From positions 1-28,804 of IMG/VR virus record IMGVR_UViG_3300038652_000277: DNA of 28,804 bases. The stretch is one strand, 5' to 3'. The first letter of the stretch is position 1, and every line of letters starts with the position of its first letter. The notes under the pieces were generated by a model. That model did no database searches, was not told where the DNA came from, and saw only the letters and a program-made list of their open reading frames with translations. This DNA comes from a virus. Positions 233 to 20,303 of this stretch are shown here, piece by piece. Position numbers and translations under genes: made by a program.

Positions 233-448
233 TTATATTATATCTTCTAGTTTAACTAATTTACTGTCTTTAATTATAATTGGGAAATATTGTTGACCTG
301 CTGCTTTTGCTTTTTCCATGTATCTATCTGCATCTGCTGCTTTTAATTCAGTCATTAATGAATATGTATATTCTATTTCTTCTTCATCTAGTGCTTTTTC
401 TACTTTTCTGCATCTCTGGCAACCAGGATTGCCTATTACTTGTATCAT
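233..448 (-). CDS. Glutaredoxin/NrdH-like redox protein
   Basis: A 71-aa protein with the thioredoxin-fold layout of small glutaredoxins. A first beta strand (MIQVIGNPG) leads into a CQRC active site (C10, C13), then a helix (RKVEKALDEEEIEY), and the cis-proline strand YFPIII (P56). Such proteins pass electrons by dithiol exchange, typically to ribonucleotide reductase. The neighbouring ATP-cone gene 14 nt downstream makes that the natural partner. The start is ATG behind AAAGGAGG. The protein is shorter than a typical glutaredoxin (about 80-90 aa) but keeps both cysteines and the cis-Pro. A diverged paralogue without cysteines is encoded at 994-1383. Confidence 0.8.
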   Translation of the reverse strand: MIQVIGNPGCQRCRKVEKALDEEEIEYTYSLMTELKAADADRYMEKAKAAGQQYFPIIIKDSKLVKLEDII

Positions 449-1383: not shown

Positions 1384-1731
1384 CTAATACAGTTTTATTT
1401 CTCCATTTAACAGTTTGTAAACTCTGTTTACCCCACCATTTATCCAATACTCAACTCCTTTATTAGTCATATTGTATCTCTCTGCTAATTCTGTTAAGTT
1501 GTACTGATCAACATAGAAATCTATTAGTATGTATTTCATTTTATCATCTAAACAATCATGTGTCAAGCAACTTTTTAAATCTATTAATATATCTAGTGCT
1601 ATGCTATCTCCCATATTAGCCCATCTTTCTAATCTTCTGTAATTATTTAACAAATATCGTACAACATCTTTTTTTGAGTAGTCGGCTAAGTTTAGCAACT
1701 CTCTATTTAGTTTATCAGCTATTTTAACCAC
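1384..1731 (-). CDS. ArpU/RinA-like HTH transcription regulator
   Basis: A 115-aa basic protein with the layout of phage ArpU/RinA-type late-gene regulators. An N-terminal helical part (VRYLLNNYRRLERWAN then a GDSIALDILIDL helix) precedes a sigma region 4-like helix-turn-helix. The HTH reads LTELAERYNMTNKGVEYWIN and is followed by GGVNRVYKLLNG. Such proteins activate late or packaging genes in Firmicute phages. It overlaps the holA-like gene by 8 nt. The GTG at 1731 abuts the GAGGAGG Shine-Dalgarno with no spacing, so the true start may lie a few codons in (ATA 1720-1722, or TTG further down). The HTH assignment rests on pattern recognition only. Confidence 0.6.
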   Translation of the reverse strand: MVKIADKLNRELLNLADYSKKDVVRYLLNNYRRLERWANMGDSIALDILIDLKSCLTHDCLDDKMKYILIDFYVDQYNLTELAERYNMTNKGVEYWINGGVNRVYKLLNGEIKLY

Positions 1732-2554
1732 CTCCTCTAGTGTAGATATAACTGCATATATAATCTAAGGCTAATTCTGGGCTTATTTTTCCTGTTTTTA
1801 TTTTTCTATTATACTCATTGACTGTCTTAAACATGGTCATTAGGCTCTCTTTTGAGTATGTTCTTGCCTGTTTTTTAAATATTTTTACTTGATAAGGATG
1901 TAAACTAAAGTCTTTTGCTATATTTCCTTTTTGTTCTTTACATATAATCAAACCTCTCAACTGTTGTGCTATCATGTAAAGCAGTTTTATAGGGTGTTCA
2001 TTTAGTCTATTTAAGTATTTCATATAATTGTTATTTTCAAAAAGAGCATTTATGAAAATAAAGATGTCATTGTCTTTTGTTATCTCTAACTGCTCTATGT
2101 AGTTATTCTTTTCTGTTCGATTAAGGTATTGCAGTCTTTGTACCTCATTGTAGATGCTGCCCACATCTTTTTTATGCTTTGTAATTTTCTCTGCCTGTCT
2201 TTTTGTTATCCCCAATTTTGTGATTATCTGGTTTTTAATGAAGTCCTCATTTGCATCTATAGTTGTATCTACTATTTCTTCTTTATCTGCTGTTTTAAAT
2301 ATTTTCCTTCTTCCATCTTTTTTATCCACCTGGATCACAAATTTATACTCTCTTTCTAACTTACTGAAATCAGAACTAAGGAGGTCAGGGTTCTTTAATA
2401 ATCTATTCTTTCTCAATAAACCACCTTTAGGTAAAAACGCACTGATTTCATAATCACCTAAATATTCCTTTATTAATTTATCTGTTAACTGGTTGTTGCC
2501 TATAAATATGTATTTATCTTTTTTCTCTGTGCTTAAAAAATCAGTGATGTTCAA
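1724..2554 (-). CDS. holA: DNA polymerase III delta subunit-like (clamp loader)
   Basis: A 276-aa protein. The C-terminal half has the HolA signature pattern HPIKLLYMIAQQLRGLIICK, then SLHPYQVKIFKKQAR, then a helix ending in the NRKIKTG motif before SPELALDYI. In bacteria delta is the clamp-opening wrench of the loader. The N-terminal half is diverged and carries no obvious Walker motif, as expected for delta. The bacterial protein is about 330-345 aa, so this one is short. It starts at TTG 2554 behind AAGGAGGTT, right after the stop of the delta'-like gene. The order dnaX-holB-holA in one operon strongly supports the call. Confidence 0.75.
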   Translation of the reverse strand: MNITDFLSTEKKDKYIFIGNNQLTDKLIKEYLGDYEISAFLPKGGLLRKNRLLKNPDLLSSDFSKLEREYKFVIQVDKKDGRRKIFKTADKEEIVDTTIDANEDFIKNQIITKLGITKRQAEKITKHKKDVGSIYNEVQRLQYLNRTEKNNYIEQLEITKDNDIFIFINALFENNNYMKYLNRLNEHPIKLLYMIAQQLRGLIICKEQKGNIAKDFSLHPYQVKIFKKQARTYSKESLMTMFKTVNEYNRKIKTGKISPELALDYICSYIYTRGGG

Positions 2555-3220
2555 TTAAATAACCTCCTTAATCTTAATAAACATTTCCTCTAATATGAAA
2601 TTATACCCTTTATCATAATAATGTTCGTACTCTGTTATTATTTTTATTACCTCTGGGTCTTTCATATAATATTTTAATGGTTTTGAGAATAGTATAAAAT
2701 CTTCTATTTCTAAATTAAATAAACTTGATACTCTCATTTTTTCTATATTATCTGCTATCTTCTTTGCCACCTCTATGGTGTCTTTATCTGCCTTCTGTAA
2801 TAGTCCTATGGTATCATAGTAATTAAGGTATTCTTCCTTCTCTGCTGCCGATTTTAACTGCTCTCGGGTGTAATTATCCATTGTGAAGATAGCTGCTCTA
2901 GTCTGCAAAGTTCTTATAAACTGATTCTTAAATCTACCTGTAATTATTATTCTTGTGTGCTCATTTGGTTCTTCTGTGATCTTTAATAGTGTATTCTGTG
3001 ATTGATAATTCATTTCATTAATATTAAAGAGATATGTTCTTTCACTAGTTAATTTACTACTGTCTGAAATCACATACCTCACATCATCTACTGTTGCCAG
3101 TCCTCCTACTACATCTTTATATTTTTCTTTTATTAATGTTTTCTTCCCACTTCTATGCTTACCTAACAATATCACAAACTGTGGGAACTCTTTATTTAAT
3201 AACCTCTGCTGCCCTATCAT
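2555..3220 (-). CDS. holB: DNA polymerase III delta' subunit-like (clamp loader)
   Basis: A 221-aa AAA+-like protein with a degenerate P-loop (GKHRSGKK, residues 20-27, Lys where Ser/Thr should be), the helix QNTLLKITEEP, a sensor-like RIIITGRF and a TRAAIF segment in the place of the SRC motif. These are the hallmarks of delta', the stator of the bacterial clamp loader, which usually does not hydrolyse ATP. I place the start at ATG 3220. GGTGA lies 5 nt before it, and it comes 1 nt after the dnaX stop; an upstream in-frame GTG at 3229 has no Shine-Dalgarno. The C-terminal collar is shorter than in cellular homologues (about 330 aa). Confidence 0.75.
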   Translation of the reverse strand: MIGQQRLLNKEFPQFVILLGKHRSGKKTLIKEKYKDVVGGLATVDDVRYVISDSSKLTSERTYLFNINEMNYQSQNTLLKITEEPNEHTRIIITGRFKNQFIRTLQTRAAIFTMDNYTREQLKSAAEKEEYLNYYDTIGLLQKADKDTIEVAKKIADNIEKMRVSSLFNLEIEDFILFSKPLKYYMKDPEVIKIITEYEHYYDKGYNFILEEMFIKIKEVI

Positions 3221-3221
3221 A

Positions 3222-4226
3222 TTAATCACCCATCATCTTCATTAAGTGCCCTTGAATTAATAATTTCTCATCATTCTCATATCTAAGGCTAACATATAAG
3301 TTATTAAACTCATTAAATAAATCTCTTAACCTGTAACCACTATCAGTTACCACTTCTACCATTTCATCTAGGTTTTCTTCATACATTATTGGGACTTTTA
3401 TATAGTCAAATTCCCTAAACAGTGCATATTTTGTTAATTCAACTGTAAATTTAGCTGTTTGCTCTATTAGTTTTGTTAAATTTTTACCATCTTGGTGTGC
3501 TTTTTCTACTATCTCTAATACTTCTTTAGGGTTTGTTGAGGTTAATATTGATTTAAATAATTTAAAAATTAATGGATAATTAACACTGCCTGTTAGTTCT
3601 GTTATTTCTTCTATTGTTGGGTTTTCTATTTTTAGTGCCCTCTCTAAGATACTCACTGCACTTCTTACACTACCATCTGCTATCTTTGCTATATATTCTA
3701 CTACTTCTTTTTCTATTTGTTGTCCTTCTTTTTCCAGGATCATCTCTAACATTCCTGCTATTGCTGTCCAGCTTATCCTGGTAAACTCAAAGTGCTGCAC
3801 TCTTGTATGTATTGTAGGTATTATCTTCTCTGGTTCTGTGGTTGCTAATATAAACACAACCCCCTCTGGTGGTTCTTCTAGTGTTTTTAGTAAAGCATTA
3901 AATGATGATTTACTGAGTTGGTGGGCTTCATCTATAATATATAATTTATTGTTGCTAATCATTGATTTCATTTTAGTGTTTTCTCTTATCTGCCTTATAT
4001 TATCCACTGAATTGTTGCTCGCACCATCTATCTCTATTGTTTCAGCATTTAACTCATTAGCAAATATTCTTGCTATTGTTGTTTTACCTACACCACTACC
4101 TCCACTGAAAAGATAACCAGTGGAGATGTCATTTTCTTTTAGTTGTGCTTTCAATATTTTCTTATTTAGTTTTTGACCTAGCACATCTTCAAAAGTTTTA
4201 GGTCTATATTTTACTGCTAAACTCAT
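3222..4226 (-). CDS. dnaX: DNA polymerase III gamma/tau-like clamp-loader ATPase
   Basis: A 334-aa protein opening LAVKYRPKTFEDVLGQ, as in DnaX. Motifs in order are Walker A GGSGVGKTT (42-50), the EIDGASNNSVDNIR segment (65-78), Walker B with DEAH (99-102), the helix SSFNALLKTLEEPPEG, sensor I ATTEPEKI (128-135), and TRVQ (141-144) in the place of the SRC arginine-finger motif. The four-cysteine zinc module that bacterial DnaX carries before EIDAAS is absent; FANELNAET joins directly. The tau-specific C-terminus that binds DnaE and DnaB is also missing, so this is a gamma-like core. It is the first gene behind a consensus promoter (4266-4294). Confidence 0.9.
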   Translation of the reverse strand: MSLAVKYRPKTFEDVLGQKLNKKILKAQLKENDISTGYLFSGGSGVGKTTIARIFANELNAETIEIDGASNNSVDNIRQIRENTKMKSMISNNKLYIIDEAHQLSKSSFNALLKTLEEPPEGVVFILATTEPEKIIPTIHTRVQHFEFTRISWTAIAGMLEMILEKEGQQIEKEVVEYIAKIADGSVRSAVSILERALKIENPTIEEITELTGSVNYPLIFKLFKSILTSTNPKEVLEIVEKAHQDGKNLTKLIEQTAKFTVELTKYALFREFDYIKVPIMYEENLDEMVEVVTDSGYRLRDLFNEFNNLYVSLRYENDEKLLIQGHLMKMMGD

Positions 4227-4265
4227 TTTTACTTCTCCTCCATTTCTTTTCCCCTTCTACATATA

Positions 4266-4294
4266 ATTATACCAAATTGAGAGGTTGTTGTCAA
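4266..4294 (-). promoter_or_regulatory. Consensus sigma-70 promoter for clamp-loader operon
   Basis: On the minus strand TTGACA (4289-4294) and TATAAT (4266-4271) are separated by exactly 17 bp, a perfect match to the vegetative consensus. The -35 box overlaps the stop codon of the gene ending at 4291. The dnaX-like ATG lies 40 nt past the -10 box, behind ATGGAGGAG. Confidence 0.85.
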
Positions 4295-4650
4295 GGAATT
4301 TGTTGACTTTCTTTCATTTTAATATAAGCATAATACATATCTAAAAAGCTCTTTTCATCTAATAAAAAATATTCTTCTCCTTCTATATCTCCAAAATTTA
4401 AAACTACTGCATTTAGATCAATCTTTTTAAAGAAGGCTTCCTCTGATAACTTCTCTAAAAATTCTTTTTTTATTGTTTGCTGCTTTTGTGGCTCTTTCAT
4501 TGTTTTACATTCTAATAATATAAACTGACCTCTCACATCCCCTACTTTGAAATCAGGAGCACCACTGTTATTTACATTATATGTTTTTCCATCTACCATT
4601 TTAACCAGTTTAGTTACTTTTTGTTCATGTGGCTTACTTATTTCTCTCAT
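4291..4650 (-). CDS. Small PD-(D/E)XK nuclease-like protein
   Basis: A 119-aa protein with a core resembling the PD-(D/E)XK nuclease fold: SGAPDFKVG (D33), then FILLECKT (E47, K49), followed by a Gln-rich helix start (QKQQTIKKEFL). This order (Asp, ExK, Gln) is that of small phage resolvases and VRR-NUC/Vsr-like enzymes. It probably acts on branched or damaged DNA during replication, but the exact family is not identified. It is the last gene before the promoter of the clamp-loader operon and follows the C5 methylase gene by 13 nt. Confidence 0.55.
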   Translation of the reverse strand: MREISKPHEQKVTKLVKMVDGKTYNVNNSGAPDFKVGDVRGQFILLECKTMKEPQKQQTIKKEFLEKLSEEAFFKKIDLNAVVLNFGDIEGEEYFLLDEKSFLDMYYAYIKMKESQQIP

Positions 4651-4663
4651 TATTTACCCCTTT

Positions 4664-5767
4664 CTATAAACTACATAATTTATATTGATTATTGGCAATC
4701 CCATTTGATCTTTCTTCTTTCTTAATGTCCTCTTTTTTATATATGCTTTTGAATATTTCTTCTAACACAGGAACTACAATACTGTTACCTGCCATCTTAT
4801 ACATTCTAGTGTCTGACTGATCAGAACCATTATAAAAATCACTTTCTAACCTTTTCTTTGCTTTATAATAATCAACATTATCAAAACCCATCAACTTAAA
4901 ATATTCTAAAGGAGTTAACTTTCTTATGCTATACTCAGTTTCATCAAACTCTGTTATATCAATCTGCTTTGGTTGCTTATAGTCAGAAGCTAATAAAGAC
5001 CCGACTAGATAATTTATATCATGCACCCACTGTCTTGAATTAGTCCCCTGTGCTCTTATTGGTTGGGTTGTTCCTTTAATAACCATATCGCCTGTTTGTG
5101 GTATCTTATTCTGCAATTTTTGATTATTAAGGCTCTCTTTATATCTCTTATGATATTCTTCATTAAGATAATATTTCTCATTAACCTTTTTTTCTAAGGT
5201 ATCTTTTAAAATTAGACTTTCTTTTCTTCTGCCCACATGTAAATCAAGGCACTTCAAGCTGCTCACAATAAACAATCTATTTCTATTTTGGGGGGCACTG
5301 AAATGTTGGGAATTTAAGGTTAAAATTTTAGTCTGATACCCCATTTCCCTTAAAATATGTAACCAGTCTTTCAAACTATGTCTAAATTTATTAGATAATA
5401 GATTAGGTACATTCTCTGCTATCATCACCTCTGGTTTCTTATTTTCTGCAATTCTCATAGCTTCCCATAAAAGACCACTCCTGGTTTCTGACCCTTTTGA
5501 AAACCCTAATTTATTGCCTGATATACTTATATCTTGACAAGGAAACCCATATGTCATTAAATTAAAATCATCTAGTTTCTCTGCATCAATATTTTTTATG
5601 TTGCCTAAGTTTTTATCCTCACTCACACTGTGTATAGCAGAATAAGCAGCAGAAGGGTATTTATCTATCTCTGAATACCCAACTAAGTCATAAGCCACAT
5701 CTATGTTTGAAAGTGCCTTCTCAAATGCCCCTATACCACTAAATAAACTTAATAACCTCACCCCCAT
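4664..5767 (-). CDS. C5-cytosine DNA methyltransferase
   Basis: A 367-aa protein with the classical m5C methylase motifs. These are SAM-binding motif I LLSLFSGIGAFEKAL (residues 5-19), motif IV GFPCQDIS with catalytic C77, motif VI AENVPNLL (E118), motif VIII QNRNRLFIV (from Q160), a target-recognition region between about 180 and 310, and motif X MAGNSIVVPVLEEIF near the end. It transfers methyl from SAM to cytosine C5 at an unknown site. No restriction endonuclease is adjacent, so it is an orphan phage methylase, most simply a defence against host restriction. ATG start behind AAAGGAGG. Confidence 0.93.
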   Translation of the reverse strand: MGVRLLSLFSGIGAFEKALSNIDVAYDLVGYSEIDKYPSAAYSAIHSVSEDKNLGNIKNIDAEKLDDFNLMTYGFPCQDISISGNKLGFSKGSETRSGLLWEAMRIAENKKPEVMIAENVPNLLSNKFRHSLKDWLHILREMGYQTKILTLNSQHFSAPQNRNRLFIVSSLKCLDLHVGRRKESLILKDTLEKKVNEKYYLNEEYHKRYKESLNNQKLQNKIPQTGDMVIKGTTQPIRAQGTNSRQWVHDINYLVGSLLASDYKQPKQIDITEFDETEYSIRKLTPLEYFKLMGFDNVDYYKAKKRLESDFYNGSDQSDTRMYKMAGNSIVVPVLEEIFKSIYKKEDIKKEERSNGIANNQYKLCSL

Positions 5768-5777
5768 GTTTAACCTC

Positions 5778-6818
5778 CTAAAGTTTACTCACCTTCTCAT
5801 TAACCTTATCTCTTATCTCTTTATATAGTTCTTGATCTTCCTGTAATTTCTCTTTCAGTGCTAATTTACCTTGAAACTGCATTTTCTCTCCATCTTCATC
5901 ATATAATAATTCTCCTGTGTCATTATCAAAAAGTTTATACCAGGCACCTGCTTTTGCTATGATCTTTTCTTCCACTGCTGTTTCTATTGTATCCTCAAAT
6001 ATATCTATTCCTTCCATATAATTGAGGGTGTAACTAGCAAAGGCTCTATTTGGTTTACTGACCTTAGTCTTAACTATTTTTAATTCTACTAACTGCCCTA
6101 CTGGTCTATCTGCATTTCTCGATATTTTCTTATAATCCTCATCTAATAAACTCCCTTTTTTAGAGAATATTCTCAAAGCTGAATAATGTTTTAGTGCTCT
6201 CCCTCCTGGTGTTCTAAAGTTATTGAAGGGATTATCTATGTCCTCTCTAACCTGGTTGATAATAAATAAACTGGTATTATATTTAATAAGTAATCTTATT
6301 ATTTGCTTACAAAACTCTGTCATTGGAAGGCTTATTCCACCATATGTCTTTTTACCTACACTCTCATTTAGTTTAGAAGCAGGCAGCAAAGAAGGCAAAC
6401 TATCTAATACTACTACTGATAATCCTCCTGTGGACACTAATTCTATTATATAATCTAATACTTCTTCTGCTGTCTCTACTTCTGGTGCCATCACTATTAG
6501 ATTTTCTACATTCACCCCTAATTTCTCTGCCCATTTTAAATCAAGAGTGTGCTCTGCATCTATGTATAATGCTCTTTTATCTGGGAACATTTTCTGTGCT
6601 TCCCCACAAAAACCTAATGCTGTTGTTGTCTTACCACTACCATCTGACCCTGCTATCTCTGTTATTCTTTTTAGTGGCAGTCCCCCATATAATTGCCAGT
6701 TAATCTTTGGTGAGGGGAATGGTATTTTATCTATTCCTTCATAATCCATATTTTCTTTAATAAGCGGTCTGTCTTTACCTCTATTTATATTTCTTATAGC
6801 ATCATCTAGTTTACTCAT
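5778..6818 (-). CDS. recA: RecA-like recombinase
   Basis: A 346-aa RecA/UvsX-type ATPase. Walker A is GSDGSGKTT (57-65), with YIDAEHTLD, Walker B LSVVVLDSLPSL (133-144), and an L2 region with FIINQVREDIDNPF then TPGGRALKHYSALRI. It forms filaments on single-stranded DNA and drives strand exchange. I chose ATG 6818, with AAGTGGTGA placed 5 nt before it, over the GTG at 6830. The gene overlaps the upstream gene's stop by 8 nt. It sits with SNF2, Cas4-like and RecU-like genes, which suggests recombination-dependent replication or repair. Confidence 0.92.
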   Translation of the reverse strand: MSKLDDAIRNINRGKDRPLIKENMDYEGIDKIPFPSPKINWQLYGGLPLKRITEIAGSDGSGKTTTALGFCGEAQKMFPDKRALYIDAEHTLDLKWAEKLGVNVENLIVMAPEVETAEEVLDYIIELVSTGGLSVVVLDSLPSLLPASKLNESVGKKTYGGISLPMTEFCKQIIRLLIKYNTSLFIINQVREDIDNPFNNFRTPGGRALKHYSALRIFSKKGSLLDEDYKKISRNADRPVGQLVELKIVKTKVSKPNRAFASYTLNYMEGIDIFEDTIETAVEEKIIAKAGAWYKLFDNDTGELLYDEDGEKMQFQGKLALKEKLQEDQELYKEIRDKVNEKVSKL

Positions 6819-7335
6819 TCTGATCACCACTTTGCCCTACTGTGCTTGTGCTGTGATTAAAGGTTATCTCTGCTTTTCTTTTATCCACTATCTTCTTTAC
6901 TCCTGTATATACATTTTCTGCTTTTTCTATTTTTGACTTTAACTTCTTATATGCTCTCTTATATGCTTTCTCAATTATATCTTCTTCTAAAGTGGCTAAA
7001 CTTGCCTGTGATTCCTTTTCTGGAATTGTGCCCTCTACCTTTAATATCTTCTCATCATAGGCTTCATTCTTCATACTACCTGCCACATCCCCCTCAACAC
7101 CCAAATGCTCTAATCTCTCATTAGCAAAATAAATATAAGTGGGAAGTCTTATTGTAATCAGTTCCAATTCTTGTTCTGATAATTCACCTTTTTTTACCTT
7201 TTCTCTTATTTCTTCTAAGTAATTATCTAAATCTTCTATGTAATCCCCTATAATGCCCCCAACTAAACGATTAACTCTGTTTGAATTAACATTTAAATCA
7301 TTCAATAGTTGTTTAACTTTATCTTCTTTTATCAT
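6811..7335 (-). CDS. Helical protein upstream of recA, unknown
   Basis: A 174-aa protein, mostly predicted helix with high Lys/Glu content, that I do not recognise. It has an N-terminal helical repeat-like part, a central segment TIRLPTYIYFANERLEHLGV, and a C-terminal run of basic helices (YKRAYKKLKSKIEKAENV). It ends in a polar tail. The start overlaps the resolvase gene by ATGA (4 nt), and its stop overlaps the recA start. The tight coupling on both sides suggests a partner in recombination, but that is inferred from position only. Confidence 0.6.
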   Translation of the reverse strand: MIKEDKVKQLLNDLNVNSNRVNRLVGGIIGDYIEDLDNYLEEIREKVKKGELSEQELELITIRLPTYIYFANERLEHLGVEGDVAGSMKNEAYDEKILKVEGTIPEKESQASLATLEEDIIEKAYKRAYKKLKSKIEKAENVYTGVKKIVDKRKAEITFNHSTSTVGQSGDQNE

Positions 7336-7835
7336 CTTCTACCCCTTTCAAATAATACTCTTAAATCCCAGCCGTATCCCCCTTGTTCAAGTGGTAGTTT
7401 AGGTACTTCTAAAGTTTCTTTCTGGAAGTATTCTAAAGGAATTGATTTATCATTATTTGGATATTCTTCTATGAATTTTTCTGCATTTGGGAAAGCATAT
7501 CTTAAATATAAATATTCTAAAATTGTTATAGCAAAAACTTTTCCTTTTGTGTTTCCTGACCCCATCCATCTGAAATTAAATATTATATAACCCTGACCAC
7601 CTTCTCTAACTATCTCTGTTAATCCCTCTATTTGGCTTTCACTCACACAATTAAAATTGAAACTTTTCCCACCACTTGTATTCATTTTACACTCTATCCC
7701 ATACATAGTGCCTTCACTTAAAGCAAGGAAATCAGCATCAGAATTAACTTTACCATAAGCACTGTCGGGGATTCTTAATCCCCAACTTTTAAGGTCTTTC
7801 ATACTTTTACTTATATCACTTTCAAATAAGTTCAC
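7332..7835 (-). CDS. RecU-like Holliday junction resolvase
   Basis: A 167-aa protein with a nuclease core of the RecU type. DADFLAL (D33/D35) is followed by YGIECKM (E48, K50) and the helix ESQIEGLTEIVREGGQG (Q68), which leads into the strand YIIFNF. RecU, the Firmicute Holliday junction resolvase, has the same D, ExK, Q order followed by a Gly-rich turn. It would cut four-way junctions made by the RecA encoded nearby. The GTG start at 7835 has AAGGAGG with good spacing and overlaps the upstream Cas4-like gene by 14 nt. The N-terminal arm is short compared with cellular RecU (about 200 aa). Confidence 0.65.
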   Translation of the reverse strand: MNLFESDISKSMKDLKSWGLRIPDSAYGKVNSDADFLALSEGTMYGIECKMNTSGGKSFNFNCVSESQIEGLTEIVREGGQGYIIFNFRWMGSGNTKGKVFAITILEYLYLRYAFPNAEKFIEEYPNNDKSIPLEYFQKETLEVPKLPLEQGGYGWDLRVLFERGRR

Positions 7836-8634
7836 TTTGACCTCCTTTAAGTGGGTTGTGGTCTTTTTTACAGATAGTCTTATACATACAGAATCTACAG
7901 CTTTTTAAATCCTTCTCTGGTAGTGTTTCTTCTTCTATGTGCTGCTCAACTTTATTTATTTTATTAATTACTTTTTCTTTATCTTTTTCCGATTCAATTA
8001 CTTTGATGGCTTTCTTCTGATAGTTGTTTCGTTCCTCATACAGATACATAACTCTATCTATCCCAAAACTAAGAGAATAACTTATACCCTGCATTACATG
8101 ATATGGTGAGATACTTGTTCTATTTTGCCACCTAAAAGTATCATCTGTCTTTATCTCTAATAGATAAAATTTATCTTTGATCTTAATTATCCCATCTACT
8201 CTGAATCTAATATTATACCTGGTATCTACTATCAATGCTTCTAATCCATCATATGAGATAACATCTAAATAATCTAACTCATTATCCTTAATAAATTCTC
8301 TAACATCTACCCATTCGAATTTATAATCTAATTTATCATTAATATAAATTAATAGCTGCTGTATCCTCTCATGTCTATCTGTTCCTGTTTCCCCTTTTAG
8401 AATATTCTTAGGTTCTATGTTCTGTGTTTTATCTATCTCTGCCCCCACTCTTTTATAGAATAACTGTCTAGGGCAGCCCCCTATTGAAGAAGGGGAGTAA
8501 TACTGAGAAGGTTTCCTTAAATTCTCATTATTCCTTTTGGTTAAGGCTTCATCTAATATGTTAATTAAGTATTCACCATCTGTTATCTCTTTACTTCTTG
8601 TGTTTAGTTTTTTAACTAAAGTATCTAAACCCAT
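7822..8634 (-). CDS. Cas4/RecB-like nuclease with four-cysteine cluster
   Basis: A 270-aa PD-(D/E)XK nuclease of the Cas4/AddB-RecB type. SSIGGCPRQLFYKR (C54) is followed by GTDRHERIQ (H88), FRVDGII (D147), LLEIKT (E160, K162) and a Gln (Q182) in motif QhxxY-like YHVMQGISY. A C-terminal CRFCMYKTIC (C246, C249, C255) completes a four-Cys arrangement that usually holds a 4Fe-4S cluster. Such enzymes resect DNA ends and make 3' tails for RecA. It is not near any CRISPR array. ATG start behind GAGGGGGA, directly after the preceding stop. Confidence 0.8.
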   Translation of the reverse strand: MGLDTLVKKLNTRSKEITDGEYLINILDEALTKRNNENLRKPSQYYSPSSIGGCPRQLFYKRVGAEIDKTQNIEPKNILKGETGTDRHERIQQLLIYINDKLDYKFEWVDVREFIKDNELDYLDVISYDGLEALIVDTRYNIRFRVDGIIKIKDKFYLLEIKTDDTFRWQNRTSISPYHVMQGISYSLSFGIDRVMYLYEERNNYQKKAIKVIESEKDKEKVINKINKVEQHIEEETLPEKDLKSCRFCMYKTICKKDHNPLKGGQSELI

Positions 8635-8868
8635 TTATTCTTCCCCCTCTATTTCTGTTAATTTAAGTCTGTATTTCTTGCCATCTAAAGTAAAAACTTC
8701 TTCATAACCTGCAAACTTATCCACTACTGCCTTCATAAACTCACCAGTAATATCTTTCTTCTTCATAAAATGTGATTCAGTGGTATCTAAAAATCCTGCA
8801 TAGATATTATCAGATATTGCTCCTTTTGCTATGTGTAACTCATCTATTGTGTAATTTTTCAAAGACAC
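8635..8868 (-). CDS. Small unknown protein between unknown and Cas4-like genes
   Basis: A 77-aa protein that I do not recognise. It starts at GTG 8868, sharing one base with the previous stop (TAGTG), with GGAGGG ahead of it. The sequence is soluble, mixed helix and strand, with a C-terminal beta hairpin-like stretch (VFTLDGKKYRLKLTEIEGEE). No cysteines and no membrane segment. Translational coupling to both neighbours suggests a replication or recombination role. Confidence 0.55.
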   Translation of the reverse strand: MSLKNYTIDELHIAKGAISDNIYAGFLDTTESHFMKKKDITGEFMKAVVDKFAGYEEVFTLDGKKYRLKLTEIEGEE

Positions 8869-9815
8869 TATTTACCCTCCCTAAGATCAAACTTCTCCTG
8901 AACATTAACATATCCTCTACCATCACAATGACTGCACTCTACTAAAGGCTCGTTAATATGAGTAATCACTCTCTCTAAATAGTTATCTATTTTTTCTATC
9001 AACTCTTTTTCACTATTTGCTTTGATTGAAGGCAAAATAGGATACCTTTTATAATTTTCTTCCTCACTTGTCATTTCAAAAATGGTGGTTTCAGTATTGG
9101 AAGATATTCTACGATCTCTTAAAATATCGGATTCCAATTCTGTAACTAAATCAAAAGCATCTTTATCATATCTTCTTTTCTTGACAGTAAAACAGAAGTT
9201 ATAATCACTAGTTATCTTAGCATATCTATGGTCTATGTTTTCTTTAATAAACTTTCTTAATATGTTGTAGAGGTCTTTAGATGCTATTTTGCAAGGATAA
9301 TTGTGCAACATTAACTCTGGAATTAACATCTTATCTAAACCCTGATGTTTGAAGTTGGCATTATTTATCTCCACATCCTTAGTAGAAAAACTGACTTTTG
9401 ATTCCCCTGTGTATTTTGCTTTAGGTCTAAAGTAATAATCTTCTACTTCAAATAATGTGTTTATCTCATATTCTATTTCTCCCCATTTTTGTTCTGCTAA
9501 ATCGTATTCATAATTGTATAAACTTGCATAACTTGCTTCATTATCAAAATCTTCTTCTGACATAACTAGAGGAAGTTTCTCTGATTCTAATTCTGGATCA
9601 TTTAATTCATATCTAACATTTATCTTTTCTCGACTGCCTTTTTTCTCTATCTTTTCAACCTCATCTATATCCACATAATACCAGCCCTTAGAGTATGTTT
9701 CTTCTGGTTTAACCCCATTAACTTTTAAATCGAGCAGTCTGCTGCTCTTATAACTACGGGGGTTGTCTGTAAGAAAAATTCCTTTATCTGTTTTAATCAT
9801 ATCTAATTCTAACAT
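8868..9815 (-). CDS. Unknown replication-module protein with C-terminal CxxCxGxG knuckle
   Basis: A 315-aa acidic protein that I do not recognise. The body has no known motif. Near the C-terminus there is a single DnaJ-type knuckle CSHCDGRGYV (C294, C297); C175-like and C208-like cysteines also occur in the body, so one zinc site is possible. It lies between the sliding clamp gene (13 nt upstream) and a coupled small gene, which argues for a replication-associated job. ATG start behind GGAGGAGAG. Confidence 0.55.
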   Translation of the reverse strand: MLELDMIKTDKGIFLTDNPRSYKSSRLLDLKVNGVKPEETYSKGWYYVDIDEVEKIEKKGSREKINVRYELNDPELESEKLPLVMSEEDFDNEASYASLYNYEYDLAEQKWGEIEYEINTLFEVEDYYFRPKAKYTGESKVSFSTKDVEINNANFKHQGLDKMLIPELMLHNYPCKIASKDLYNILRKFIKENIDHRYAKITSDYNFCFTVKKRRYDKDAFDLVTELESDILRDRRISSNTETTIFEMTSEEENYKRYPILPSIKANSEKELIEKIDNYLERVITHINEPLVECSHCDGRGYVNVQEKFDLREGK

Positions 9816-9828
9816 TTATCTCTCCTCC

Positions 9829-10860
9829 TTAGTCCACTAACTTACCTGTAAAGTATTCTGTTTCATTATCTTTTAAACAAAAAGCTAAGTTTTCTCCATC
9901 ACACATCAATCTCGCAGTATCAGAAGTTGTGTTCTTAACAAAAAGGATTAAATCATCAATAACTAAATTACAAGCAAATGAGCCTTCTCCTTCTACTTCT
10001 AATTCTTCTTTTGATTTACCTTTAAGATCAGATAGTAATAACTTCTCCCCATCAGATTCCAGGTGGAGACCCTTATTACCCATTGGGTCTGTAAATATCT
10101 CTATCCTATTTAAGACTTCTTTCAAAGCAGCAGTCTCTATGTCAGCATGATTTTCATAAGAAGCATCTTTATATGTTGATAAATCTGGGAAATCCCCTAT
10201 ACCATATAACTGACTTCCAAAAATAGTCAAACTATCAGAATCAAATAATAACTTATTATCATCAACCATTATCTTTAAATCTTCTTCCTCAAACAGATTA
10301 ACCATTTCCATTAAATCAGCAGGTATCAATAACTCACTACTCAGTAACTTATCTTTTGTTATTGCCATTTTTGTTCCATCTAGGGTCAATACTTCTTCCC
10401 CTAGATAATAACCTGTTAATACAGGAACTTCTAGGTCAGTAGAAGGTGTTCCTTTATGTTTTGCCACTATCTCCTGCAACACTGCTGCATCTACTTCCAT
10501 TACCTCCTGTGGCTCTATCTCATAACTAGGAAACTCATCATTGTAATAATCTAATTTATATTTACCATTTGATTTTATCTCTAAGTATTTATCCTTAAAG
10601 TTAAACTCAACAAACTCTGAATTTAGACTTTTAATTAATTTAACCAATTTAGACCCTTCTACTACTTTTGACAGCTTTTCTTCTGTATCCACCTCCACTC
10701 TGGAAGTTATGGTATAAGTCTTATCAGTAACAGTTATAATTAATGTGCCTTCACTAACTAATAATTCAACATACTTACATATTTCCATTATCTTATTACT
10801 ATCTATTAACTTATTAACCTTACTTAGAGCATTTTTTAACTCTTTAACATTTATTTTCAT
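9829..10860 (-). CDS. dnaN: DNA polymerase sliding clamp, beta-type
   Basis: A 343-aa protein close in length to bacterial DnaN (about 366-380). It opens with KINVKELKNALSKVNKLID, as DnaN does. The three-fold repeated clamp pattern can be followed through the segments VEGSKLVKLIKSLNSE, YKLDYYNDEFPSYE, TGYYLGEEVLTLDGTKMAITKD and ADLMEMVNLFEEEDLKIMVDD. The beta clamp encircles DNA as a dimeric ring and holds the polymerase on it. It lies 11 nt after the phage polymerase gene, and a matching clamp loader is encoded in the same window. ATG start behind AGGAGGATTAG. Confidence 0.85.
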   Translation of the reverse strand: MKINVKELKNALSKVNKLIDSNKIMEICKYVELLVSEGTLIITVTDKTYTITSRVEVDTEEKLSKVVEGSKLVKLIKSLNSEFVEFNFKDKYLEIKSNGKYKLDYYNDEFPSYEIEPQEVMEVDAAVLQEIVAKHKGTPSTDLEVPVLTGYYLGEEVLTLDGTKMAITKDKLLSSELLIPADLMEMVNLFEEEDLKIMVDDNKLLFDSDSLTIFGSQLYGIGDFPDLSTYKDASYENHADIETAALKEVLNRIEIFTDPMGNKGLHLESDGEKLLLSDLKGKSKEELEVEGEGSFACNLVIDDLILFVKNTTSDTARLMCDGENLAFCLKDNETEYFTGKLVD

Positions 10861-10871
10861 CTCTAATCCTC

Positions 10872-13800
10872 CTATTTGATTAATTCACCATACCACTTCT
10901 TACTTACTTCATGATCAACTGACATTGTTACAGTTACAGGGTCTCCTGCTTTTAACATTAATTCTTCTACTCTCTTTTTCGCCTTTTCTATCTTTTCTAA
11001 GTCATTCTCTATCTGCCCTATTACTTCATCATGCACTGGTAATAATAGTTCATAACCTAATTCAGCTAAGTAATCATCATTATCAATTAAAACTATTGCT
11101 TTTTTAGTCATATCACTTGCTGATCCCTGAATAACACTATTTATTGTCTGCCTTTCTGCTTCTGCTATAAACCCTGTATTATCTTTTATCTTAACCCCAT
11201 CTTGTTTTGCTTGCTGTTTTATTCTCTGTTTTTGTTTCCAGTATCTTGCCTTTTCTAATTTCTTTCTATACTCTTTTCTCTTTTTGGGGTCATCACACTT
11301 AACCTCATACTCTGGGAGGTTAATATCTGGTAATCTTCTTTTTCTGCCATAAATGGTTTTAACATAATTGTTTTTCTTACAGAATATCCTTGTCTTTTCT
11401 ATTGTATCCTTAACTTTTGGGAATCTATCAAAGAAAGCATCTAGTATTTTCTGTGCTTCTTTTGGTGTCTTACCCATCATTTCTGCTACTGTTGGGATAC
11501 CCATGCCATACAGAACTCCTAAAAGTAGGCTTTTGCAATAATCCCTGTATTCTTCATTTTCCTGCTCTTTAGTACATGTTTCATATGGAACATCAAATAT
11601 CATACTTGCAATTATAGCATATAAGTCTTTACCATTATTATATGCTTCTATCATATGTTCATCACCAGACACATAAGACAGGATTCTTGGTTCTTGCTGG
11701 CTGTAATCTGTGGATATTAAAACTTTGCCTTCGTCTGCTTTAAACATCTGTCTTATCTCGTGATTGTCGCTCGGGATGTTCTGACAGTTATATGAAACAG
11801 TTGCTTGATTATTCCTTCTAACAACTATCTTTTCAGAAGGAACAGTAACACAATATACTTGACCATCATATGGAACTTTATTAATCTCTGTTGTAGAGAA
11901 GTATCTATCAGTTCCTTTATGTAAATTAACAACAGTATGCTTATCATCTTTGTCATACCAGGAGGTACTATACCCTGTCATAAGTGCCACTGATTGAACT
12001 AAATCAACTGCTCTTTTTCTGTCATTCCTCTGTAAAAAAGCTGCTCCTCTAGTATAATCACCACCCCATCTATGTATGCACTCTAAAAACCATTTTCTTG
12101 CTTCATAGTCTAAATTCAAAATTTCTCGATCCTTAAACACTTTAGTTTTAGAATCAACACTTAAATCTAACCACTCTTTTAAATACTCAACTTCTTCTTT
12201 ATACAGATTAATATAAAATTTATCACTCTGCCCTTTACGCTTTACATTGTCAAATAAAACTTTCAGTCTAGCAACTTTTCTTTTCGATTTAACCTCTATT
12301 TTGATTCTATTTATGCCTTCTTGAACATAACCATCAGCTTGAACAGCTATTGCTTTTTCTAAAGATAGTTTTTCTTCTTTAGTTAATGTCCTGCCTTCTT
12401 TCTTTATCCCCCCTCTAATTGCTTTTCTATCTATTGTTCTAGGAAGTCTTTTAAATTTATCATAAAATTCTTCGGCAGTTTCAGTAACTAATCTTCCTGC
12501 TCTAGTTTTAGATAACATTCTATGATCTGGGGTTACTAATAAATCAACACCCTGATAATCAAACTTATACATATCCCCTTTAAAATGATACGATATGTAA
12601 TCTAAAGGCTTCACAAATTCTATCTCTCCATTTTCTTCCCACTGTGCTACTTTTTCTGTTTTGTCTAAGTTCTTAAACAACTTCCAACCACTATCTGTCA
12701 ATATCTCTGTTTTATCATCATAACAATTAGGTTCGCTGCTTGAAAATCTGCCTGTCTTTGCCCCTACTTGATTTAACCTAGTATGTATTTTTCCATCACT
12801 TTTAACTACCTCTGGTAGTTTATCTATATAAGTTGATAAAAGTTTTCCTATTTTCCTCTCTTTTAACATATTATCAAAAAATAATCTAATATTTTCATCT
12901 TTTGCTTCATCTCTAAAGTGTTTTAGGGCATCAGCAGCAGTGGTTCTCTCCTCATACTCTAAATGTAACACATCATATATTACTATTGCTAATTGCACTG
13001 GGCTATTTAAATTTATAGGGTCTCCTAATTTACTTTTCTTTTTGTCTGATAAATGACTATAATCTAAAGAATCTAAGAAATCATGTATCTCTTTTTCTAT
13101 TTTATTTATTTTGTCTGTGTATTTTTTGCTTAATTCATTAGCATATTCACTATCAAAATCAAACCCTCTTTCTTCCATATTTATTACTGCTTTTATTGTA
13201 GGAATTTCCCAATTCAAATAGAATTTGCCTGCTTCTTTTAATCCTGTCTGATCTATATATTCGCCCTCTGGGTGTAAATACTCTCTCTGGAACTCATATA
13301 ACTCATAAGTCATTATAGCATCTTTAGCACCATATAAACTAGCAAGATAAATAGGAACAAGACTGATATTTATATCTTTAAATAAGTCTTTAAAGCTCAT
13401 TGATTCCTGCTCTGATTTACCTAACACATACCTATCATATAAGTATTTAAGACTATGTTTTTCATTTTCATTTAGATATGTACTTGCTATATATGTTTCC
13501 CACCCTGTTGAATTTTTGTCGAACTGACCTAAAGCATTAATAAACACTCTTATATCATAAACACTATTATGAAAAATAAACTTTTTATCTATCTCTCTAA
13601 ACACCTCTGAAACTTGTTTATATGTTAACTGCTTATCATAATCATATTTATAATTAAAAGTAATCAGGTTTGTCTTTTTATGTTTAATAGGAACATATAT
13701 CCCATTATTATTTTTTGAATACCCACTTAATCCTACTAATGTATCTAGCATAGGGTCTGGGTTTGATCCTACTACATCACTCTCTGTATCTACTGCATAT

Positions 13801-14027
13801 AATTCATCTTTAGTAAAGAATTTATATAATTTATTTTGGTCTGTTATTACTTCTATTTTTTGTTTTTCTTCTTCTGTGAAATTTTCATGTACTCTTTTTT
13901 CTATATTATTAAGCTGTGCTTTTAGTTTATTCTTACTTACCTGCTTTGTTGCTTTTTTTCTGTTTTTTAATTTATTAACTAACTCTTTATTCTTCTCTCT
14001 TACCCCACTAAACAGTGAGTTTTGCAT
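10872..14027 (-). CDS. polA: Family A DNA polymerase with intein
   Basis: A 1051-aa precursor; 738 aa remain once the intein (residues 435-747) is removed. No 5' nuclease domain. The 3'-5' exonuclease is intact: DTE (D80, E82), HNSVYD (N154, D158) and YGAKD (Y232, D236). Polymerase motif A is STDYSQQEPR (D774). The O-helix is R828-K832-L836-Y840, with Leu where E. coli has F762. Motif C is HDE (999-1001). The protein begins MQNSLF, which resembles a beta-clamp binding pentapeptide. It should be the replicative polymerase because no DnaE or PolC is visible in the window. ATG start behind GAGAGGAGG; a hairpin separates it from the SSB gene. Confidence 0.95.
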   Translation of the reverse strand: MQNSLFSGVREKNKELVNKLKNRKKATKQVSKNKLKAQLNNIEKRVHENFTEEEKQKIEVITDQNKLYKFFTKDELYAVDTESDVVGSNPDPMLDTLVGLSGYSKNNNGIYVPIKHKKTNLITFNYKYDYDKQLTYKQVSEVFREIDKKFIFHNSVYDIRVFINALGQFDKNSTGWETYIASTYLNENEKHSLKYLYDRYVLGKSEQESMSFKDLFKDINISLVPIYLASLYGAKDAIMTYELYEFQREYLHPEGEYIDQTGLKEAGKFYLNWEIPTIKAVINMEERGFDFDSEYANELSKKYTDKINKIEKEIHDFLDSLDYSHLSDKKKSKLGDPINLNSPVQLAIVIYDVLHLEYEERTTAADALKHFRDEAKDENIRLFFDNMLKERKIGKLLSTYIDKLPEVVKSDGKIHTRLNQVGAKTGRFSSSEPNCYDDKTEILTDSGWKLFKNLDKTEKVAQWEENGEIEFVKPLDYISYHFKGDMYKFDYQGVDLLVTPDHRMLSKTRAGRLVTETAEEFYDKFKRLPRTIDRKAIRGGIKKEGRTLTKEEKLSLEKAIAVQADGYVQEGINRIKIEVKSKRKVARLKVLFDNVKRKGQSDKFYINLYKEEVEYLKEWLDLSVDSKTKVFKDREILNLDYEARKWFLECIHRWGGDYTRGAAFLQRNDRKRAVDLVQSVALMTGYSTSWYDKDDKHTVVNLHKGTDRYFSTTEINKVPYDGQVYCVTVPSEKIVVRRNNQATVSYNCQNIPSDNHEIRQMFKADEGKVLISTDYSQQEPRILSYVSGDEHMIEAYNNGKDLYAIIASMIFDVPYETCTKEQENEEYRDYCKSLLLGVLYGMGIPTVAEMMGKTPKEAQKILDAFFDRFPKVKDTIEKTRIFCKKNNYVKTIYGRKRRLPDINLPEYEVKCDDPKKRKEYRKKLEKARYWKQKQRIKQQAKQDGVKIKDNTGFIAEAERQTINSVIQGSASDMTKKAIVLIDNDDYLAELGYELLLPVHDEVIGQIENDLEKIEKAKKRVEELMLKAGDPVTVTMSVDHEVSKKWYGELIK
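11787..12725 (-). mobile_element. Intein in PolA (residues 435-747)
   Basis: This in-frame insertion of 313 codons interrupts the conserved polymerase segment SSSEPN-(L)QNIP. It begins CYDDKTEILTDSGW (Cys1, block A) and has block B VTPDHRML (T499, H502). The block F-like YDGQVYCVTV precedes an end in VSYN followed by Cys+1 (CQNIP). The penultimate residue is Tyr instead of the usual His. A degenerate DOD-type endonuclease is suggested by AIAVQADGY (559-567) and ECIHRWGGDY (649-658), but the second motif lacks the second acidic position of a canonical LAGLIDADG. Cys+1 stays in the spliced enzyme in place of the usual Leu. Confidence 0.9.
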
Positions 14028-14090: not shown

Positions 14091-14777
14091 TTAGAAAAAG
14101 TCAGCAGGGTTATCTGATTTCTTAGACTTCTGACTATTTCCAGAAGAACTTGAAGATGTCTGATCAAAATTGAATGTTCCTGCTACCATTTTCTCTAAAT
14201 CTGCTTTATCTCTTTTAATAATTAAATTAGCTTTCTCTGCTCCTGCTAATTCTGTTCTTTTCTCTTTAATCTTCTCTCTATTCTTCTCTGTATCCTCCAT
14301 AAACTTACCTTCTTCTTTTGCCTGGGCTTCTGACATAGGGAATAAATTATATGTAGTGTTGGTGTCCCCTTTCTTCCCTGCTCTTTTAACCTTGATATAT
14401 TGACTAAAGAGAGGATTATATTCTTCCAGGTAACTCACAAATTTACCAATAAACTGTCTCCCTCTTTCCCAAACTTTTAATTCTTTACCATCTGAATAGT
14501 CAATTAACTGGATAAACCCTCTTGGTTTATTGCTGCTACCAGCTTGACACAATGGGCACTCTTTGCCTTCTGGGGTTAAACAGGCAACTTTTCTTGTTTT
14601 ACCCCCAATCTCAATCTCATGAACAACTTGCCACCCATTCTCGCTGAAATCCTCAATATCTGTGTATAAAAATCTTACCCATGCTCCATCACCATCATCT
14701 GCTAAATGAAAAAAGTCTGCTCCTCCACCTGTGCTTGAATACTCCTCGAACTGATTCATAAAATCTTTTGCTTTCAT
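14091..14777 (-). CDS. Single-stranded DNA-binding protein, T4 gp32-like
   Basis: A 228-aa protein with an H-x12-C-x7-C-x2-C zinc site (H53, C66, C74, C77), close to the H-x12-C-x9-C-x2-C pattern of T4 gp32. This is followed by an aromatic, basic core (PRGFIQLIDYSDGKELKVWERGRQFIGKFVS). A charged helical part, a Ser-rich linker (TSSSSSGNSQ) and a C-terminal tip SDNPADFF complete it. It coats single-stranded DNA at the fork and recruits partners through the tip. It lies directly before polA and behind its own promoter. ATG start behind AGGAGGAATT. Confidence 0.82.
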   Translation of the reverse strand: MKAKDFMNQFEEYSSTGGGADFFHLADDGDGAWVRFLYTDIEDFSENGWQVVHEIEIGGKTRKVACLTPEGKECPLCQAGSSNKPRGFIQLIDYSDGKELKVWERGRQFIGKFVSYLEEYNPLFSQYIKVKRAGKKGDTNTTYNLFPMSEAQAKEEGKFMEDTEKNREKIKEKRTELAGAEKANLIIKRDKADLEKMVAGTFNFDQTSSSSSGNSQKSKKSDNPADFF

Positions 14778-16138: not shown

Positions 16139-17068
16139 TTATGTCATATATTTTAACTCATACTCAAAATCATCAATATTTGGTGTATCTCCTGGATCAT
16201 CCCCATTTGTAAAAAATGCCCTTTTGACTAAACTATTTTTAAACTCTGCTGCTATCTTTTTAGAATAAATGTCACCTGCCTTATCATTATCAAAAGCACA
16301 AACTATTACTCTGTAGTTTAATCTTTTTATTTCCTCTATCTGTTCTCCACTTAATGACCCCAATGTTGCAACAACATCTTTTCCACTTCTATATACTATT
16401 ATAGCATCTATCGCTCCTTCTGTCAACCATAATTCGTTATTTTTTTCTAATAAATGTTTACCATATAAAGTATTGGTATTTCCCTGTGTATCATTCCATC
16501 TACTATCTATCCCTTTTTTCTGGTAACCAACAACTTCAAAATCTCTACTAAATACTGGAAAGACTAATGAATTTGTCTTTAGATCATAACTAACCTGAAA
16601 CAATTCTGCCATCTCTCTCGTTATTCCTCTTTCTTCCATGTAATCATGATAGTCTGAAAATTCAGTCGGGTCATAATCAAACTCTTTTATCTCATTTCTA
16701 TTTCTGTTAATATCTATTTCTATTTTCCTCTGGTTATATTCTCCTGTTACAAAATTAGAAACTATCCATTTTATTGCTTGTGGGTATGTGATATTCAGAA
16801 CATCGCTCACCACATCTATGATACTTCCAGAATAATCGCAGCCAAAACAATTAACTGTTCCTGCTAAAACTGTGTCTCCCTTATAATTAGTATGAGTTTC
16901 ATAACAGATTCCACAGCTAGGAGTAGAATCATTATGGTTAGGACTAGGACAGGTTATCATTATACTATGATTAGTTTCTTTTGATTTTATTGTATGATCT
17001 TCCTGCTGTAATGCCTTAACTATATCTTCTATTTCTGCGAATATAGGCACTCCTGCTACTTCTATCAA
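16139..17068 (-). CDS. dnaG: DnaG-like primase
   Basis: A 309-aa protein with a DnaG-type zinc-binding part, C40-PSPNH45, C52, C55 and CFGC (C74, C77), then helix DVVSDVLNITYPQAI. A TOPRIM domain follows: LWLTEGAIDAI (E217), the strand VIVCAFDND (D260, D262) and a DPGD loop (291-294). It makes RNA primers for the lagging strand. The C-terminal helicase-binding domain of cellular DnaG is absent, so it is about half the usual length. It starts at TTG 17068, overlapping the DnaB stop by 4 nt (TTGA), which supports a helicase-primase unit. Confidence 0.88.
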   Translation of the reverse strand: MIEVAGVPIFAEIEDIVKALQQEDHTIKSKETNHSIMITCPSPNHNDSTPSCGICYETHTNYKGDTVLAGTVNCFGCDYSGSIIDVVSDVLNITYPQAIKWIVSNFVTGEYNQRKIEIDINRNRNEIKEFDYDPTEFSDYHDYMEERGITREMAELFQVSYDLKTNSLVFPVFSRDFEVVGYQKKGIDSRWNDTQGNTNTLYGKHLLEKNNELWLTEGAIDAIIVYRSGKDVVATLGSLSGEQIEEIKRLNYRVIVCAFDNDKAGDIYSKKIAAEFKNSLVKRAFFTNGDDPGDTPNIDDFEYELKYMT

Positions 17069-18351
17069 AATAAATCAACTCCTTCTCTATCTATCCTCTG
17101 TGTTTTCTTTTCCCCGTCTGAATTATCCACCTGTAAATAAGGATTAATTATTCCTTTATCCATATCCCAAATAAATAACAGGTCTATGTCAGCTTTACCA
17201 AAGTTGTTTTTCTTAACACACAACTTCATCATTTTATCAATTTTATTGAATGTTATAACCCTTCTACAGTTATGAGCAATAGCATCTGCACCATATATCT
17301 CACTAATCTTAGGTACTTCTATTTCATCTATCGCTTCTACTGTTTCTTCCTGGTCTGCATCTCTATTTGCTTGATGTGGGGTTAAAATAGGCACTGCATA
17401 TTTCTCTGCTAACTGATATAATTCAGAGGTTATATTCTCATACCTAACTGTTCTCTGTGCGCCACCTAATTCATCATGGATTAAACTTATCTGATCAATG
17501 CCTACAATATCAGGATTATATTTTTCTATTAATCCCTCTATTTTGCTTACTGTTAATCTGCCCTGTATATCTCTAGGTTTAATTATAATAAAAGGAACTT
17601 CCCCGTTTTTTAGATCATCAATATATTCCTCATAATCTTTTTCTATTATTTTATTTCCTCGCATTAAATCTGTATTACTAAAATGTTTATTTAAAGTATC
17701 AAACCTATAACTCATTACATCTAAAGGCATCTCTCCTTCATACAGCAACACGCTCTTTCCCTGTTTCCATGCCTGCACTAAGAAGAACATTAATAACCAG
17801 GTCTTACCCTTAGAAGTTCTTGCTATGATACTTGTGAAATCACCTTCACTGTTCCAACCACCTAATATATCATCTAATTCTTCTATGCCTGTGCTTATGC
17901 CTTGCATATCTTCCTGTTCTGCTCTTTTTCTGAATTTATCCAATCTCTCTGGTGCTGATTTAACTAAATCTACACCTTCTTTATAATTATTATGTATCTT
18001 GTTAAATTCATCCATTTTTGTTTTTAAGTATTCAAACGCTTCATTACTATCTTCCTCAGTTTTCTTTGCTAACTGTCTGATAAAAGGAGACATTTGACTG
18101 AATAAATATTGTTCTTTTAGCTGCTCAATTAAATATCTATTGCTTTCCTCTATCTCTAGCATATCAAAGTCTTGGAATTTGTCCAATATAGTTGTTTTAT
18201 CTGGGATATTACCATATTTTTTATAGTGTTCCTTAATAAAATTATATTCTTCTTTATATACCATAAAATAATCATCTGTTATATCGTTCTGTCTTAAAAT
18301 TGATAAACTTCTCTCATCTAATATTTTATTCAAGACTTGAAGTTCTACCAC
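17065..18351 (-). CDS. dnaB: DnaB-like replicative helicase
   Basis: A 428-aa protein with an N-terminal helical domain (to about residue 130) and a RecA-like ATPase. The motifs are STGIEELDDILGGW (153-166), Walker A ARTSKGKTW (178-185), LYEGEMP (203-209), Walker B PDIVGIDQISLI (280-291) and the TPHQANRDADQEE segment. It is the hexameric fork helicase, working with the loader and primase encoded on either side. GTG start at 18351 overlaps the loader's stop by one base (TAGTG). The protein ends EGVDLF, an acidic-hydrophobic tip similar to those of SSB and the initiator. Confidence 0.88.
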   Translation of the reverse strand: MVELQVLNKILDERSLSILRQNDITDDYFMVYKEEYNFIKEHYKKYGNIPDKTTILDKFQDFDMLEIEESNRYLIEQLKEQYLFSQMSPFIRQLAKKTEEDSNEAFEYLKTKMDEFNKIHNNYKEGVDLVKSAPERLDKFRKRAEQEDMQGISTGIEELDDILGGWNSEGDFTSIIARTSKGKTWLLMFFLVQAWKQGKSVLLYEGEMPLDVMSYRFDTLNKHFSNTDLMRGNKIIEKDYEEYIDDLKNGEVPFIIIKPRDIQGRLTVSKIEGLIEKYNPDIVGIDQISLIHDELGGAQRTVRYENITSELYQLAEKYAVPILTPHQANRDADQEETVEAIDEIEVPKISEIYGADAIAHNCRRVITFNKIDKMMKLCVKKNNFGKADIDLLFIWDMDKGIINPYLQVDNSDGEKKTQRIDREGVDLF

Positions 18352-20173: not shown

Positions 20174-20303
20174 TTCTGCCCTCCTTCTCAGCAAAATTTA
20201 TTTTTCTTTTTTATGTTCTTTTTTTTCTTTTTTAACTATATTTAGTTTTAACCTTTATTTAGTTTTATCTTTATTACTTATATTACTTAATAACAAGAAT
20301 AAT

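Follow-up and report, generated by a model that had tools for sequence, protein, structure and literature searches.

In phage T7, processivity of the family A polymerase depends on a thioredoxin-binding insertion that takes up host thioredoxin, and in T4 the clamp is a trimer that is contacted by the C-terminus of the polymerase. The annotated phage nearest to the locus analysed here is Streptococcus phage Dp-1, with a complete genome of 56.5 kb (NC_015274); both Dp-1 and MS1 (KY629621) are phages of Streptococcus pneumoniae. In Dp-1, genes for DnaC, DnaB, DnaG, a sigma factor, SSB and PolA follow one another as gp66-71, and past a queuosine block come DnaN, Cas4 and RecU (gp10-12), UvsX (gp15), a ligase Ia domain (gp16) and three clamp-loader genes (gp17-19); MS1 is organized alike. 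In bacteria, a QxxLF motif of actinobacterial PolA2 has been modelled in the beta pocket, to its authors' knowledge the first such case among bacterial polymerases of family A; the authors also point to phage homologs of PolA3 enzymes (PMC12926913). QxxLF is the beta-clamp-binding consensus given in a review, according to which the LF pair alone can bind, the motif of Hda lies at a disordered N-terminus, and binding in E. coli owes much to the Gln, delta being the only natural Gln-less ligand cited (PMC11139829).

The stretch of DNA analysed here (the window) is a 28.8-kb IMG/VR virus record, a fragment of an incomplete virus genome, in which the minus strand carries all replication genes (Table 1). 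Their order is DnaC-DnaB-primase-sigma-SSB-PolA, then clamp-Cas4-RecU and, further along, UvsX and DnaX-delta'-delta. The sigma-like genes near the module lie at 14861-15535 and 1384-1731, and their Dp-1 equivalents are annotated as sigma factors. An initial annotation, made from the sequence and its open reading frames, had read a beta-type clamp, dnaX-, holB- and holA-like loader genes and a Pol I-like polymerase in this region; all five were matched to these families by profile at the same positions, and structure prediction confirmed the folds of the clamp and delta, DnaX and delta' being confirmed at the profile level. From its list of accessory genes, SSB, primase, DnaB and DnaC were borne out by PHROG matches and the initiator was not: the candidate has no match in the PHROG search and a weak Pfam hit below the cut-off. 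Two relatives of this candidate occur in neighbouring loci. Its C-terminus, EMPDFF, may mimic the tip of SSB, which ends in NPADFF. The C-terminus of DnaB (window 17065-17082) is GVDLF, a short hydrophobic tip past a variable linker; the corresponding tips of DnaB-like helicases in relatives are DVF, DLF, NLF and VVF, with a final F in 13 of the 14 listed, and possibly represent another docking peptide of the clamp or SSB type. A thioredoxin-domain ORF was also seen at window 233-448 (phrog_22 5.5e-8). A search of genome contigs for the host returned only two distant matches, both in metagenome-assembled Firmicutes genomes.

Table 1. Replication and recombination features of the window, with the profile matches or other evidence on which each assignment is based.
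Feature	Coordinates	Strand	Evidence and remarks
Delta (HolA-like), 276 aa, TTG start	1724..2554	-	PF21694 (delta C-terminal domain) 9.3e-18
Delta' (HolB-like), 224 aa	2555..3229	-	PF13177 1.1e-8; phrog_5846 1.1e-16; positioned as Dp-1 gp18
DnaX-type clamp loader ATPase, short, 334 aa	3222..4226	-	PF13177 4.5e-30, AAA and DNAX lid; phrog_5846 4.5e-78
UvsX/RecA-like recombinase	5778..6830	-	phrog_97 4.9e-64; syntenic with Dp-1 gp15
RecU-like Holliday junction resolvase	7332..7835	-	PF03838 1.9e-5; syntenic with Dp-1 gp12
Cas4-type exonuclease	7822..8634	-	phrog_1706 2.9e-42; syntenic with Dp-1 gp11
Beta-type sliding clamp (DnaN), three domains, 343 aa	9829..10860	-	PF00712 7.2e-13; phrog_947 2.3e-37
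Family A DNA polymerase (PolA), 1051 aa including intein	10872..14027	-	PF00476 7.4e-78; PF01612 (3'-5' exonuclease) 4e-8; phrog_17 1.4e-110
PolA intein, 313 aa, residues 435-747	11787..12725	-	inserted before CQNIP; alignment to intein-less PolAs
Candidate clamp-binding motif QNSLF, PolA residues 2-6	14010..14024	-	M1, Q2, L5 and F6 invariant with Dp-1 and MS1
Single-stranded DNA-binding protein	14091..14777	-	phrog_14578 4.9e-43; tip NPADFF
DnaG-like primase, zinc ribbon and Toprim	16139..17068	-	Pfam, PHROG
DnaB-like replicative helicase	17065..18351	-	Pfam, PHROG; C-terminus GVDLF
DnaC-like helicase loader	18351..19019	-	phrog_50 1.7e-54
Possible replication initiator, by position only	19364..20194	-	Pfam DUF4423 0.0048, below cut-off

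PolA lacks a 5'-3' exonuclease domain and is 40% identical to Dp-1 gp71 (38-40% across Dp-1 and MS1). The motifs of its 3'-5' exonuclease (VDTE 79, HNSVYD 153, YGAKD 232) and polymerase domains (DYSQQE 774, YGMG 840, VHDE 998) are intact. Within the replication module, as covered by this fragment and by searches for the C family, this proofreading enzyme is the sole replicative polymerase. The profile search of the window found no C-family polymerase, with controls positive, and agrees with the earlier reading that the only polymerase here is Pol I-like. DnaE and PolC were also sought beyond the window by way of relatives. All 36 related IMG/VR records contain the clamp, and a C-family polymerase was above the cut-off in none of them (bacterial controls positive); this search covered the C family. 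Among complete records, a clamp (phrog_947) without a C-family polymerase (PF07733) was found in Dp-1, MS1, R5C, KF3 and Seurat. Contig L091 extends about 4 kb past the left end of the window, where the translations read as a ribonucleotide reductase and a dUTPase-like ORF, and no second polymerase is present among the listed ORFs of this extension. The genome being a fragment, a second polymerase of this virus could have gone unseen. The self-contained, clamp-dependent Pol A replisome proposed in the initial annotation is thus upheld as a composition, and clamp dependence is the part of it that we infer.

The virus may have three inteins in all. In addition to that of PolA, one lies inside the Walker A motif (GLGK ... 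HNT) of a SNF2-type helicase (window 21752-24565, minus strand), where LAGLIDADG and Hint matches were found, and the reductase running on into L091 (14009-17296) appears to hold another. In four relatives (L095, L098, L100 and L141) the DnaX match is lengthened by about 400 bases and spans about 1.4 kb, and in L141 the DnaX frame at the Walker A site resembles an intein end (VTHNT), which suggests inteins in the DnaX of several relatives.

The clamp gene directly follows PolA, with 11 bases between them. For the clamp, the AlphaFold2 model (pLDDT 95.4) was matched by Foldseek over its full length to the beta clamps of E. coli and P. aeruginosa (E ~1e-28, TM 0.89). When a profile of 44 related clamps was compared with the PDB, the 48 distinct sequences that matched were all beta clamps, the best ones aligning over nearly the whole chain. 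With its three domains, the protein falls into the ~340-380 aa class of DnaN. The positions of subsite I of the peptide pocket are mostly hydrophobic in this clamp family (E. coli L155 corresponds to V/L/I, L177 to I/V/M/A and V360 to I/V), and P242 is a proline in 35 of the 44 clamps. H175, R176, M362 and the C-terminal PMRL are not kept, and the positions on the Gln side drift; in the window clamp, T172 is replaced by L and M362 by G. To judge from these alignments, a retained subsite I and a drifting Gln side would fit relatives that keep the LF pair and lose Gln. Among the loader subunits, DnaX has an intact Walker A motif and no tau-like C-terminal extension. Delta, unlike the other four clamp, loader and polymerase genes, found no match in the PHROG search; its AlphaFold2 model (pLDDT 90.6, pTM 0.64) has B. 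subtilis delta, YqeN, as the top Foldseek match (2.8e-10), followed by E. coli delta. Relatives of delta were chosen by gene order, an iterated delta HMM having merged all clamp-loader ATPases. Identity of the window proteins to those of Dp-1 and MS1 is 42% for DnaX and 20-27% for the clamp, delta and delta'.

The N-terminus of PolA, MQNSLFSG, is well supported, because the ATG at 14027 is preceded by a strong ribosome-binding site, GAGGAGG. The PolAs of Dp-1 and MS1 start with MAQKGLFG, so that the Gln and the Leu-Phe pair of the consensus are present as QNSLF in the window and as QKGLF in the two phages (candidate peptides MAQKGLFGAKPR and QNSLFSGVREK). The next ~50 residues are poorly conserved across the three proteins, which points to a flexible tail. 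We examined 39 PolAs of the clamp lineage, dereplicated at 70% identity, some of them from short contigs without a visible clamp. LF is present within residues 2-14 in 28 of the 39 (background 1.1% per 13-residue window), and the broader pattern [LF][FWL] in 38 (background ~10%). By comparison, among PolAs from 14 phages in which no clamp was detected, none has LF and one (T7) has [LF][FWL]. The Gln is absent in most of the relatives that bear the motif. Salmonella phage ZCSE2 had been drawn as a clamp-less control and was rejected as such: its PolA starts with MSFLFDGF, and the parallel clamp search found a clamp in its genome. More distant PolAs also fit the pattern, namely those of R5C (SGDLFGG), Pan1 (INGLFD) and KF3 (MGFF). 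On a tree of PolAs built without the N-terminal tails, from which Pan1 was left out, the motif and the clamp mostly co-occur. The clamp label changes at least 2-3 times on this tree, giving 2-3 independent pairs, which agree or are neutral and are too few for significance in a sign test (p = 0.5); Fisher p-values for motif versus clamp overstate independence, because there are only these few pairs.

The same kind of N-terminus is found beyond family A. Polymerases of a non-A family that lie near or adjoin a clamp gene start alike in Iggy (MRSDALGLFW), AQKL99 (MRADALGLFW) and Seurat (MRTDAIGFFW) (L195, L196 and L177, respectively). Seurat had been considered as a PolA example and was rejected as such, its polymerase matching phrog_1252 and not Pfam family A; it is kept as a clamp-linked polymerase outside family A. 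A stand-alone NAD-dependent ligase Ia domain starts with QKSLF in Dp-1, QRTLF in MS1 and QKTLF in a further locus, L127 (L001:9859-10218 and L007:5472-5843, both PF22745; L127:4722-5144, by 46% identity). This protein has only ~120-140 aa, though it is annotated as a DNA ligase. The window gene at 4291-4650 was considered as its relative and rejected, there being no similarity. In our literature search, whose coverage left out central publications on Dp-1 and on viral replicases, no report of an N-terminal motif in phage PolA was found, the closest idea being the QxxLF motif of actinobacterial PolA2.

Taken together, we consider it likely that the window encodes a replisome of the Dp-1 type, in which a phage clamp and loader render a proofreading PolA processive, probably through an N-terminal QNSLF tether, without host Pol III. 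The minimal loader, consisting of the DnaX ATPase, delta' and delta, would place the phage's own bacterial-type beta clamp on DNA, and the loaded clamp would make the Pol I-family polymerase processive in place of the host enzyme, with PolA presumably copying both strands. PolA would most likely reach the clamp through its extreme N-terminal peptide, joined to the exonuclease domain by a charged, poorly conserved linker, and the Leu-Phe pair would occupy subsite I of the peptide pocket, a site that delta would also use during loading.

The clamp and loader might serve mainly in recombination, repair or late transcription, as T4 gp45 does, while replication by PolA needs neither of them or relies on a host factor; the module does include UvsX, RecU and Cas4, sigma-like genes are near by, and many phage PolAs (T7, T5 and others) function without a phage clamp. 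That the N-terminal motif fits the beta-binding consensus and tracks the clamp gene, together with the immediate proximity of the two genes in the window, makes this improbable in our view. About equally improbable is that the N-terminal LF motif is real and binds SSB, the helicase or the loader, with PolA contacting the clamp elsewhere. Such a partner would accord with the missing Gln in many relatives and with the hydrophobic tips of the helicase and SSB tails, which indicate that several tail-docking contacts may exist, yet it does not readily account for an association with the clamp gene that is found repeatedly across distant PolA lineages and also in polymerases outside family A (Iggy, AQKL99 and Seurat), or for the recurrence of the motif on the ligase Ia domain.

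A hybrid replisome, where the phage clamp and loader work with host Pol III alpha or the phage PolA works with the host clamp, seems slightly less probable still. The QxxLF consensus is shared with the host, whose clamp could therefore accept QNSLF, and much of the bacterial subsite I is kept in the phage clamp. The phage set is, however, complete (polymerase, clamp, three loader subunits, helicase, primase and SSB), phage clamps differ greatly in sequence (24-25% identity between the window and Dp-1 or MS1), and the Gln preferred by the host pocket is lost in most relatives. We thus retain tethering of PolA to the phage clamp as the preferred reading. On balance, although with less assurance than for the window itself, we favour a wider version of it, by which several phage PolA lineages gained an N-terminal QxxLF or reduced LF tether to a phage beta-type clamp and so became processive replicases independent of host Pol III, with ligase Ia domains and a group of polymerases outside family A sharing the tag.

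If a natural Pol I-type enzyme rides a beta clamp, clamp tethering would be independent of polymerase family, and the genes described here would offer a compact kit of expressible parts with which to study processive Pol I enzymes. Should the N-terminal motif prove real, a class of phage replisomes that has received little study would become open to direct tests.

The novelty implied in the initial annotation did not hold up, the same module being present in the complete genomes of Dp-1 and MS1, where the annotations of its genes read DnaN, clamp loader and DNA polymerase I. The combination of PolA with a beta clamp is recurrent and already known; what is new here, judging from the comparison of sequences, is probably the specific N-terminal motif as the likely tether. 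The window shares with Dp-1 and MS1 the genes for PolA, clamp, DnaX, delta', delta, SSB, primase, DnaB, DnaC, sigma, Cas4, RecU and UvsX, arranged almost identically, the lack of a C-family polymerase and QxxLF at the PolA N-terminus. It differs in the absence of the queuosine block between PolA and clamp, in a module without dUTPase (Dp-1 gp14; a dUTPase-like ORF lies just past the window in L091) and ligase Ia domain, in the intein within PolA and in the clamps, which are ~25% identical. Vibrio Mardecavirus KF3, Dinoroseobacter phage R5C, Pseudanabaena phage Pan1 and Salmonella phage ZCSE2 also have PolA near or beside a beta-type clamp and an N-terminal hydrophobic pair, and KF3, R5C and Pan1 a DnaX-like gene; KF3, R5C and ZCSE2, however, belong to distant PolA lineages on the tree, and delta and delta' are unannotated in all four. 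T4 likewise encodes a clamp-dependent replicase of its own (gp43, gp45, gp44/62), whose polymerase is of family B, whereas the window combines a family A enzyme with a three-domain beta-type clamp and an N-terminal motif. T7 has a family A replicase as well, but our clamp search found no clamp in it, whereas the window has its own clamp and loader. Finally, actinobacterial PolA2/APEX, likewise of family A, also has a beta-binding QxxLF motif; there it sits in a loop of an exonuclease domain that is inactive, and the enzyme is accessory and probably mutagenic (PMC12926913), whereas the motif described here is N-terminal and belongs to a proofreading-competent, presumed replicase.
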